From: Bacteroidota bacterium | GTDB taxonomy: Bacteria; Bacteroidota; Ignavibacteria; Ignavibacteriales; Melioribacteraceae | Direction of reading: 5' to 3' | NCBI GenBank assembly: GCA_018818165.1 | Contig: JAHISP010000084.1 | Location: 1 to 64,000 of the forward strand | Length of the DNA: 64,000 nt | Shown here: one piece after another, positions 46,594 to 49,633 of the stretch | Layout: each line of letters opens with the position of its first letter | Position numbering within the stretch: the first letter of the stretch is position 1 | The notes under the pieces: model-generated | What the model was told of the DNA's origin: nothing | What the model saw: only the letters and a program-made list of their open reading frames with translations | Database searches by the model: none | Position numbers and translations under genes: made by a program

Positions 46594-47724
46594 ATGAAAA
46601 TTACTATTCTTTCCGCTGCTTATCCATTACGTGGAGGCATTGCTCACTTCGCTAGTCTATTATATAAAGAATTAGTAAAAACGAACTCAGTGGATGTTGT
46701 AACCTTTAAAAGGCAATATCCTTCATTTCTTTTCCCTGGCAAAACCCAACTGGAAACTGGCGATAATCTTGAAATAATTCCCACAAAAATTGAAATGGAT
46801 TCCATTAATCCTTTTAATTGGATTAAAGTTGGTAGAAGAATAAAAAGTAATGCTCCAGATTTATTGATAATAAAACACTGGATGCCTTTCTTTGCTCCAA
46901 TTTATGGTACCATTTCAAGAATAGTTAGAAAAAACAAAAAAACTAAAATTGGTGTTATTTGCCATAATATTATTCCACACGAGAAAAAACCAGGCGACAA
47001 AGTTTTTACAAAATATTTTTTCAACTCAGTTGAATATTTTATAACCCTATCTAAAAGTGTTCAAGACGATTTAATTTCGCTTTATCCAAATGCAAAACAA
47101 AAACTGCTGTTTCATCCAGTTTATTCCAATTTTGGTGAATCTGTTTCCAAACAAATTTCCAGAGACAAGCTCAATTTAAAAAGTGATAAAATAATGCTTT
47201 TTTTTGGATTTATTAGGGATTACAAAGGTTTGGATATTTTGCTTGAAGCAATTGCTTTAATTAAAAATAAAATGGATTTTACACTTGTCGTTGCTGGCGA
47301 ATTTTATTCTAATCAAGAACAATATATTTCTTTAATCCAAAAATTGGAAATAGAAAACAGAGTAAAATTATTTAGTGATTTTATTCCAACTAATGAAGTA
47401 AAGTACTACTTTTCTGCGTGCGATGTTGTTGTGCTTCCTTATAAATCAGCAACCCAAAGTGGAATAGTACAAATTGCAAACAATTTTGATAAACCAATGA
47501 TTTCAACAAATGTTGGCGGATTAAGTGAAGTAATTGAAAATGGAAAAACTGGCTATTTAGTTGAAAAGGAAAATCCAAAACAATTAGCTGACGCAATATT
47601 AAAATATTTCAACGAAAACAAAGAAGCCGAATTTGTGGAAAACATCAAAAAAGAAGCTGCAAAATATTCGTGGAGTGAGTTTGTAAATGGAATGATGGAA
47701 CTTATTGAAACAAAGCAAAAGTAG
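46594..47724 (+). CDS. Family 4 glycosyltransferase (group 1)
   Basis: A 376-residue GT-B enzyme. The N-terminal Rossmann half opens with SAAYPLRGGIAHFASLLYKE; the C-terminal half has LFFGFIRDYKGLDILLEAI, DVVVLPYKSATQSGIVQIA and ISTNVGGLSEVI, the nucleotide-sugar site of GT4. No membrane anchor is visible, so it is a cytosolic or peripheral enzyme of the polysaccharide pathway. Its stop is two bases before the left inverted repeat of the GxxExxY cassette. Confidence 0.92.
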   Translation: MKITILSAAYPLRGGIAHFASLLYKELVKTNSVDVVTFKRQYPSFLFPGKTQLETGDNLEIIPTKIEMDSINPFNWIKVGRRIKSNAPDLLIIKHWMPFFAPIYGTISRIVRKNKKTKIGVICHNIIPHEKKPGDKVFTKYFFNSVEYFITLSKSVQDDLISLYPNAKQKLLFHPVYSNFGESVSKQISRDKLNLKSDKIMLFFGFIRDYKGLDILLEAIALIKNKMDFTLVVAGEFYSNQEQYISLIQKLEIENRVKLFSDFIPTNEVKYYFSACDVVVLPYKSATQSGIVQIANNFDKPMISTNVGGLSEVIENGKTGYLVEKENPKQLADAILKYFNENKEAEFVENIKKEAAKYSWSEFVNGMMELIETKQK

Positions 47725-47725
47725 A

Positions 47726-47755
47726 TAACCGCAAAGACGGAAAGACGCAAAGGAA
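47726..47755. repeat. Left inverted repeat of the GxxExxY cassette
   Basis: AACCGCAAAGACGGAAAGAC followed by GCAAAGGAA. It has an internal 8-nt period (CGCAAAGA, CGGAAAGA, CGCAAAGG). It is the imperfect inverse of 48271-48300. Confidence 0.88.
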
Positions 47756-47837
47756 TGAGAATCAAAACATTGTTTTGATTTTAAAAACATCTATTTTGCA
47801 ATTTAATTAAAGAATAATAAGTAGATGAGGCATGAAA

Positions 47838-48224
47838 ATGGAAAATGAGAAATTAAATAGGTTATCAAAAGAACTATTAGATGCTGCAATTGAAGTTCAC
47901 AGAGAAATGGGACCAGGATTATTGGAATCAGTTTATGAAGCATGTTTAATTGAAGAACTTAAACTACGAAACATAGCCACAACCAGTCAAGTTGAATTGC
48001 CTCTTGTTTATAAAGGAAAGAAATTGAGCAAGGAGTTTAGGCTTGATTTACTAGTTGAACAAGAAATAGTTGTAGAGCTTAAGACTGCAAATCAGATTCT
48101 TCCATTACACGAAGCACAAATAATTTCTTATTTAAAGTTGGCTGATAAAAGATTAGGTTTCCTTATTAATTTCAATGTACCATTGTTAAAACAAGGATTT
48201 AAAAGATTTGTTAACAATTTTTAA
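47838..48224 (+). CDS. GxxExxY protein (PDDEXK_3-like nuclease fold)
   Basis: 128 residues. The naming motif is present as GPGLLESVYE near residue 25, followed by the helix ACLIEELKLRNI and the PDDEXK-like core: FRLDLLVEQEIVVELKTAN (Asp then Glu-x-Lys), and LPLHEAQIISYLKLADKRLG. The family (about 120-130 residues) has a restriction-endonuclease-like fold, but its activity is not established. An ATG six bases upstream (47832) is possible; GAGG lies 7 bases before ATG 47838, so I prefer that. The gene sits in the middle of a glycosyltransferase operon to which it has no obvious link, and is bracketed by inverted repeats. Confidence 0.93.
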   Translation: MENEKLNRLSKELLDAAIEVHREMGPGLLESVYEACLIEELKLRNIATTSQVELPLVYKGKKLSKEFRLDLLVEQEIVVELKTANQILPLHEAQIISYLKLADKRLGFLINFNVPLLKQGFKRFVNNF

Positions 48225-48270
48225 TTGGGATAAATAGACATGAAATTTGCAAAAGTGGAATCGTTAACAT

Positions 48271-48300
48271 TTCTTTGCGCCTCTCCGCCTTTGCGGTTTA
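48271..48300. repeat. Right inverted repeat of the GxxExxY cassette
   Basis: TTCTTTGCGCCTCTCCGCCT followed by TTGCGGTTTA. Reverse-complemented it matches the left arm at about 24 of 28 positions and keeps the same 8-nt period. It lies 46 bp after the GxxExxY stop and 23 bp before the next glycosyltransferase start. Confidence 0.88.
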
Positions 48301-48322
48301 TTAGTTTAGCGATTTTCTTATT

Positions 48323-49633
48323 ATGAAAAAAGTATTAATCATTACATATTATTGGCCTCCTGCTGGTGGACCTGGTGTTCAGCGAGCTTTAAAGTTTGTG
48401 AAATATCTTCCGCAATTTGGATGGGAACCAGTTGTACTTACTGTGCAAAATCCCGATTCACCTAATGAGGATGTTTCGCTTTTAAATGATATTCCAGAAG
48501 GGATAAAAGTTTATAAAACAAAATCGCTTGAACCTTTTGAGCTATACAAAAAATTTACTGGAAAAAAGTCTGATTCCAAAATTCCTAATGATATTTTACT
48601 TAATAAAAAGAACGTTTCATTAAAAGATAAAATTGCACAGTGGGTTAGACTTAATATCTTTATTCCAGATGCAAAAATTGGATGGAAACGCTTTGCTGTA
48701 AAAAAAGGATTAGAAATAATTGAAAAAGAAAATATTGATATAATATTTACTACTTCACCACCGCAAACTGTTTCACTTATTGGAAAAAAACTATCAAAAC
48801 AAACTGGAGTTAAGTGGGTTGCTGATTTTCGTGACCCTTGGATGGAAATAGTTTATTACCAAAATGTAAAACGAAGCTGGCTCACAACTAAAATCGATTA
48901 TATGCTTGAAAAGAAAGTATTTACAAGTGCTAATGCTATTGTAACAATTAGTAACGATATGATTCGTATGTTTAAGGAGAAAGCAAGTAATCAAAAGTTC
49001 TATTTAATTCCTAATGGCTTCGACAACTCAGATTTTACTAAAGATTTAGAAAATAAAAATGAAAATTTCACCATAGCATATACTGGCTCTATTTCGAAAG
49101 ACAGAGTGCCACACGTGTTATTTTCAGCATTAAGTAGATTAATTAAAGTTGATGGAATTAAAAATCTACGTTTCAATTTTGCTGGTAAGTACTGTCCAGA
49201 ATTTGAGGATGAAATCAAGAAATATAATCTTCAAGGTATTTCGGATTTAAGAGGATTTGTTCCTCACAAAGAATCCACTCAAATTTTACAAAATGCGGAT
49301 GTTCTTTTGCTTGTAGTTGATAATGTAAAAAACAACAAGGGATTTTTAACTGGAAAATTATTTGAATATATGGGAACTAAAAAGCCAACGTTTGCAATTG
49401 GTCCCGTTGATGGTGATGCGCATAGCTTTCTTAAAGAATCAAATTCTGGCGCTATGGTTGGTTATACTGATGATGATGGCGCTTATAATTTATTAAAAGC
49501 AATGTACAATAACTGGAAAGCAGGAAACAACATTTACACTTTTGATGTTCAACAATTTTCCAGACAAAATTTAACAGAGAAACTTGCAGAAGTTTTTGCG
49601 GAAACATTAAAATATAATAGGAGTAGGATTTAG
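48323..49633 (+). CDS. Family 4 glycosyltransferase
   Basis: A 436-residue GT-B enzyme. The N-terminus LIITYYWPPAGGPGVQRALK is typical of WbuB-like transferases. It also has FTTSPPQTVSLIG, VADFRDPWMEIVYYQ and, in the C-terminal half, FTIAYTGSISKDRVPHVLFS and GKLFEYMGTKKPTFAIGP. Probably adds one sugar of the repeat unit on the cytoplasmic face. It ends in a diverged heptamer array. Confidence 0.92.
   Translation: MKKVLIITYYWPPAGGPGVQRALKFVKYLPQFGWEPVVLTVQNPDSPNEDVSLLNDIPEGIKVYKTKSLEPFELYKKFTGKKSDSKIPNDILLNKKNVSLKDKIAQWVRLNIFIPDAKIGWKRFAVKKGLEIIEKENIDIIFTTSPPQTVSLIGKKLSKQTGVKWVADFRDPWMEIVYYQNVKRSWLTTKIDYMLEKKVFTSANAIVTISNDMIRMFKEKASNQKFYLIPNGFDNSDFTKDLENKNENFTIAYTGSISKDRVPHVLFSALSRLIKVDGIKNLRFNFAGKYCPEFEDEIKKYNLQGISDLRGFVPHKESTQILQNADVLLLVVDNVKNNKGFLTGKLFEYMGTKKPTFAIGPVDGDAHSFLKESNSGAMVGYTDDDGAYNLLKAMYNNWKAGNNIYTFDVQQFSRQNLTEKLAEVFAETLKYNRSRI

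Follow-up and report, generated by a model that had tools for sequence, protein, structure and literature searches.

A GxxExxY gene of the PDDEXK_3 type and the two inverted arms that bracket it, located between two glycosyltransferase genes in a 64,000-nucleotide stretch of Bacteroidota DNA (the whole of which is called the window here), are in our judgement moderately likely to form a single mobile cassette, which would resemble a REPtron while carrying an unrelated PD-(D/E)XK enzyme that acts on its own arms, with gene-less doublets of arms as its non-autonomous forms. The observation made in the window was confirmed and its scope proved far wider than first described. Recurrence across phyla, presence or absence at matching sites and gene-less hairpins indicate, from sequence comparison, that the cassette is probably a poorly known type of mobile element.

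The first-pass annotation of the window had placed a PDDEXK_3-type gene within a glycosyltransferase operon, and this description holds, as the protein matches PF13366 and a co-directional glycosyltransferase gene lies on either side (GT1 upstream, GT2 downstream; Table 1). The tight fit between the neighbours was also described correctly, the left arm starting two bases beyond the TAG stop codon of GT1 (47722-47724) and the right arm ending 23 nt before the ATG of GT2. The arms themselves had been presented as 30-bp imperfect inverted repeats with an internal 8-nt period. Their inverted relation is upheld: the intergenic flanks of the gene match each other in inverted orientation with a score of 23, compared with a maximum of 17 among 2000 dinucleotide shuffles, none of which (0/2000) equalled it. 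The description is refined in one respect, in that the arms share an array of three spaced units each and not a featureless 30-bp repeat. An inverted-repeat search extended the pair into both flanks, giving an inverted repeat of 43 nt with 79% complementarity.

Table 1. Coordinates of the cassette and its host genes in the window.
Feature	Position	Strand	Remarks
GT1, upstream host gene, glycosyltransferase group 1	46594..47724	+	
Whole interval from GT1 stop to GT2 start	47725..48322	+	Corresponding space in the closest congener (G001) merely 21 nt
Left arm	47727..47753	+	Units CGCAAAGA/CGGAAAGA/CGCAAAGG, directed inwards, at 47730-47753, each 8 nt
GxxExxY / PDDEXK_3 gene	47832..48224	+	130 aa; predicted Cas4/RecB-like core, E32, D72, E82, K84, Q96
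Right arm, inverted	48272..48299	-	Units, read inverted, CGCAAAGG/CGGAGAGG/CGCAAAGA at 48272-48295
GT2, downstream host gene, glycosyltransferase family 4-like	48323..49633	+	

The window protein belongs to the GxxExxY family (PF13366 / TIGR04256) by profile score, by the GxxExxY motif and by its PD-(D/E)XK catalytic residues. PDDEXK_3 was its sole family match exceeding the cut-off, and both profiles aligned over the full length (PF13366, E 4e-41, 140.4 bits against a cut-off of 22; TIGR04256, E 2e-42, 144.1 bits against a cut-off of 35). The sequence contains the G29-E32-Y35 motif followed by D72, E82-x-K84 and Q96, and an alignment of 42 diverse members showed all of these residues to be invariant or nearly so. 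An AlphaFold2 model from 42 aligned members reached a pLDDT of 96. Its best match in the PDB was SSO0001, which we take to be a Cas4 protein (Foldseek E 0.0018; Z 9.4 with a second fold program); Foldseek returned no PDB match with E < 0.001, and Cas4 ranked first by both programs. Profile comparison also gave weak matches to Cas4 (best E 0.0009) and to phage endonuclease I, as expected of a nuclease. Since there is one cysteine in the 130 residues, the protein does not have the iron-sulphur site of Cas4. The model thus predicts a Cas4/RecB-like PD-(D/E)XK nuclease with an intact active site. A sequence search found no solved structure of any GxxExxY member. We know of no role assigned to GxxExxY proteins, and no description of an association between them and repeats was found in the literature searched by family, accessions and unit sequences.

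Orthologues of GT2 were identified in four congeners (94, 78, 76 and 75% identity), and the GxxExxY gene is absent from between GT1 and GT2 in all four. The interval of G003 contains a pair of arrays without a gene (CGCCAAGTCGCAAAGACGCAAAG ... CTTCGTGTTCTTAGTGACCTAAGTGG), that of G004 (L054) a second, dissimilar pair of short periodic arms, again without a gene (GAACTCCGAACACGGAATATCGAA ... CAATATTCGAAATTCATTATT), and that of G002 (L055), before GT2, an unrelated reading frame resembling a winged-helix regulator, with the short in-frame repeat KSSQKSSQ; since each of the three holds something different there, the spot is a repeated target. Another cassette (L010 in G001) has no counterpart at the orthologous site in G000, G003 and G004. 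The nearest relatives of the window protein, with 64-71% identity, come from other Bacteroidota groups, and identity to GxxExxY proteins of its own genus is about 50% at most, which suggests that the window cassette arrived horizontally. No target-site duplication was seen at the GT1-GT2 site, at L010 or at the doublet L369, where intergenic DNA is too diverged for exact boundaries to be set.

The same layout was examined in three sets of loci: 80 retained out of 585 confirmed ones in a collection of 84,980 species, those of the genus, and those of 296 phylum genomes, among which 151 carry a GxxExxY gene, in up to 12 copies. Taxa with such loci include Bacteroidota, Pseudomonadota, Planctomycetota, Verrucomicrobiota, Acidobacteriota, Chloroflexota, Cyanobacteriota and methanogenic archaea. 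Among 227 loci with both flanks, 74% reached an inverted match score of at least 16 between their own left and right flanks, compared with 6% when flanks were paired across loci and 4% when the right flank was shifted 500 nt outward. Each arm consists of three or four seven-nucleotide units repeated directly in tandem, and inversion of the left arm gives the right one. The commonest unit is CRCNRAG, runs of which are preceded by AACC; in a second clade the units have a GAT end (e.g. ACACGGAT), and CACGAAA or CACGAATT occurs in smaller groups. Inward-directed CRCNNAG units reach 9/kb beside the gene and 1.1-1.6/kb further away. Coincidental low-complexity repeats, produced by chance or by base composition, could appeal to the simplicity of the unit and to the single CGCAAAGA words of the window, whose frequency is not above chance. 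The window shuffles, the recurrence across phyla and a count of six arrays against none in the reversed control over 400 kb of G240 reduce the probability of this explanation to almost nothing, and the shuffle and cross-locus controls rule it out.

Most other GxxExxY genes thus carry arms of a similar kind. The first-pass annotation had proposed a mobile element whose candidate enzyme is the GxxExxY protein itself, and had named two conditions that would refute it; both were checked and neither did so. With the gene absent from this place in the congeners and arms common elsewhere, mobility of the unit is well supported, while the role of the protein as its mover is our inference.

Various other arrangements were observed. 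At L325:17990-18444 (G240), a frame-shifted GxxExxY pseudogene is still flanked by intact arms of CACTTAG units. Cassettes stand in tandem at some loci (L180, L200), and at L466 (G277:C12:53800-57000), close to a GxxExxY gene, CRCNRAG triplets follow one another head to tail in long arrays at distances of about 51 or 95 nt. A KilA-N-like reading frame, possibly another cargo, lies between two CRCNNAG array clusters at L462:522-1948 (G277), and an intergenic mosaic of several adjoining, dissimilar periodic arm remnants (ATTCCAT, CGCAAAG, TCTCACT and AATCCG units) at about 1400-1640 of L008 (G000) looks as if elements were nested.

The two arms of a locus agree in detail. The unit type, CGC or CAC, is the same in both arms at 114 of 126 loci (r = 0.87), and unit spacings, which fall into classes such as 8,8, 9,9, 10,11,10 and others, are equal between arms in 99 of 111 comparisons (89%, from 54 loci having three or more units per arm; shuffled-locus null 32%, maximum 48%). 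These features also follow the protein: on a 218-protein tree the number of changes was 7 for the unit class (null mean 31, minimum 26), 13 for the spacing class (null 38.6, minimum 31) and 24 for CGC/CAC (null 42.4, minimum 35). When the tree was thinned to less than 60% identity the signal was weaker and in the same direction (unit 4 vs 6.7, spacing 7 vs 10.8, CGC/CAC 8 vs 12.7), and it derives in part from vertical descent of orthologous sites. Arms nevertheless vary between elements of one genome, as at L171, L143 and L172 of G240. Tracking of the protein clade by unit type and spacing is what any protein-DNA recognition would produce, so the arms could instead be operator-like binding sites of the GxxExxY protein, serving autoregulation or a restriction- or addiction-like module, in a unit passively transferred with flanking DNA. 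The compactness of the gene, whose right arm starts at a median of 4 nt past the stop codon, is compatible with such a role. Autoregulation, however, has no need of a mirrored and equally conserved downstream operator, gene-less arrays are scattered in tens of copies, and the cassette is present or absent within an otherwise syntenic operon; we consider the operator explanation quite unlikely.

A strict array pattern, defined as three CRCNRAG units with 8-nt spacing, was searched in the 296 genomes and found in 82 of them, with up to 99 copies in G029, which has 4 GxxExxY genes. Most genomes had no control match; the few with control matches as numerous, G131 and G195 among them, probably contain tandem or coding repeats. 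An AT-class pattern gave 34 matches against 2 controls in G240, few of which adjoin a gene. Arms without the gene do occur, but often as inverted doublets, and their presence tracks the gene across genomes, a GxxExxY gene being found in 78 of the 82 array-positive genomes and in 73 of the 214 others (OR 38, p 8e-24, phylogeny uncorrected).

The doublets, which belong to related genomes and not to the window, measure about 55-90 nt and contain no GxxExxY reading frame. An inverted partner lies at most 160 nt away for 18 of 40 sampled arrays, with loops mostly of 9-16 nt, and folding of two doublets as single-stranded DNA gave z about -10; hairpins recovered by a scan of random 20-kb stretches were mostly ordinary palindromes. 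One doublet could be traced within a genus, where six species have it and five others lack it at the corresponding intergenic position. Its stem, compared among only six related sequences, kept 91.8% of its pairs, with both-side changes in four pairs and a covariation score reached by none of 500 shuffles. In genus g71, the one with most arrays, two (G174, G178) of six array-rich genomes now have a gene whose arms are 8-nt-spaced and four have none; because no such gene is there now, the doublets of those four are not assignable to a resident matching enzyme, and they may be relics or answer to other clades. A plain transposon reading is complicated by such genomes.

The excess of arrays over genes (99 vs 4 in G029), the existence of some array-rich genomes without a matching gene and the KilA-N-like frame of L462 between such arrays could also mean that the CRCNRAG arrays form a REP-like family of their own with another mover, for example a Y1/RAYT transposase, the GxxExxY gene being a mere rider. 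Of the 296 genomes, 210 contain genes for Y1/RAYT transposases (PF01797), but the unit reaches only 0.74/kb in the flanks of these genes. Moreover, arrays are not associated with Y1 among GxxExxY-positive genomes (p 0.13), they track GxxExxY where Y1 is present (p 8e-17) as well as where it is absent (p 1e-4), and the arm units of other GxxExxY clades are in step with the tree, which would be unexpected for a rider. This explanation appears very improbable, and RAYT/Y1 as the array mover is unsupported. Five Y1_Tnp loci (L407, L412, L413, L415 and L416) have REP-like inverted flanks of their own (such as GTCCCGAAGGGACG, AGCTCCATCGGAGCGAC), unrelated to CRCNNAG arms.

Cassettes are placed with a strong sense bias, 118 being co-directional with their neighbours, 2 antisense, 6 divergent and 9 convergent; in the same order, ordinary small genes gave 70/10/10/14 (p 2e-4) and Y1 genes 6/2/2/5. 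Such a bias is unusual for a DNA transposon and likewise complicates a plain transposon reading. It would suit a selfish insert acting at the RNA level in the style of 23S rRNA intervening sequences, whose arms would be a transcript processing signal, with a stem that RNase III or some comparable enzyme cuts; the cassette would spread as a tolerated insert, with RNA or a cDNA/single-stranded DNA form as the nuclease substrate. The PF05635 23S-IVS family, with similar arms and sense contexts in 17 of 17 cases, and the hairpin pairing maintained in doublets are in line with this possibility. In the cassettes, however, the fourth, free base of the unit is identical in 62% of comparisons between units of equal ordinal and in 59% between units of different ordinals; because it does not co-vary between arms, these appear to be kept as arrays of recognition units and not as one long stem, and a maintained long-range cassette stem is unsupported. 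The fixed unit spacing likewise favours an array read by protein or as DNA, and neither rRNA nor any other Rfam family was matched at the window locus (46594-49633). We therefore regard an RNA-level insert as unlikely.

Close copies of the cassette are mostly orthologous and syntenic, so its movement is rare, slow or old. Within a single genome, the near-identical copies found were all in tandem and none was dispersed. In two congeneric genomes (L155 and L170, about 1450-1930), one shared intergenic site is occupied by related GxxExxY cassettes that face opposite ways, through either inversion in place or independent insertion. To see whether reading frames are interrupted by cassettes, flanks were joined; 54 of 132 were open against 119 control points, a comparison that shows genes to be avoided and is too loose to give a rate. 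Carriage as phage or plasmid cargo was rejected (no phage match, one match in 2.9 million viral contigs and seven plasmid records).

Under the mobile-cassette explanation that we favour, the GxxExxY protein would recognise its own arms through unit and spacing, and a multimer would hold both ends. The nuclease would then cut or process the element, probably as a hairpin or single-stranded form, which would be copied or moved to another intergenic site. Gene-less doublets would be non-autonomous derivatives, as REPINs are of RAYTs, moved in trans now or formerly. The gene is probably expressed by read-through from the host operon, which would explain sense placement between co-directional genes, where insertion would also be best tolerated. 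If the nuclease acts on the arms, they would constitute a transposition-like system with an enzyme class new to that use; to our knowledge, no transposition system has such an enzyme alone. Many unexplained repeats of environmental bacteria would then be accounted for, and a natural series of protein clades with matching arm codes would become available. The arms offer a concrete candidate substrate for the GxxExxY family. A more general proposition, that GxxExxY cassettes are widespread mobile elements of bacteria and archaea, built on a stand-alone minimal Cas4/RecB-like nuclease with unit and spacing recognition, tied to transcription and parasitised by gene-less hairpins, is put forward tentatively, as we think it rather less likely than not to hold in full.

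Several known systems share part of this organisation. Terminal inverted repeats round one gene and derivatives without the gene recall insertion sequences and MITEs, but the cassette has no DDE transposase, its arms are made of spaced short units and no target-site duplication has been demonstrated. Cas4 (SSO0001 and relatives) is the best structural match and has the same nuclease core and motif order (E, D, ExK, QxxxY), whereas the 130-residue window protein does not have the four-cysteine iron-sulphur site and its neighbourhood contains glycosyltransferases instead of CRISPR. Intervening sequences of 23S rRNA with their S23/IVP protein, PF05635 (PMC4990558), are likewise small selfish inserts with one small gene, and free-standing IVP genes of the genus have similar periodic inverted arms; the protein family is unrelated, however, the window protein being PDDEXK_3, and the window cassette lies in a protein operon without any Rfam match and not in rRNA. 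These free-standing PF05635 genes (L031-L050, in G000-G004), 17 of 17 in sense between co-directional genes, have units (such as GTGAGAA, TGGAATGA, TTCATTGT, CGGGTTG) quite unlike those of GxxExxY, and their flanks score at least 16 in 84% of cases against 11% across loci.

TIRtrons (PMC3733652), in which a RAYT-like gene has long inverted repeats at its ends, resemble the cassette in that such repeats bound the gene and also stand alone in the genome, but their enzyme is a tyrosine transposase, and the Y1 genes of the sampled phylum have other flanking repeats. The closest parallel is with REPtrons, that is, RAYT genes with their REPs and REPINs (PMC3116915, PMC3733652). In both, a single gene stands between inverted repeat copies, hairpin-forming gene-less doublets (found here in related genomes) are scattered in extragenic DNA, the repeats vary by enzyme clade, and inheritance is slow and largely vertical with some transfer. 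The cassette differs in having a PD-(D/E)XK nuclease where REPtrons have an HUH/Y1 tyrosine transposase, arms of three or four seven-nucleotide units at a set spacing without the GTAG (or CGTC) tag, and a location within operons in sense orientation.
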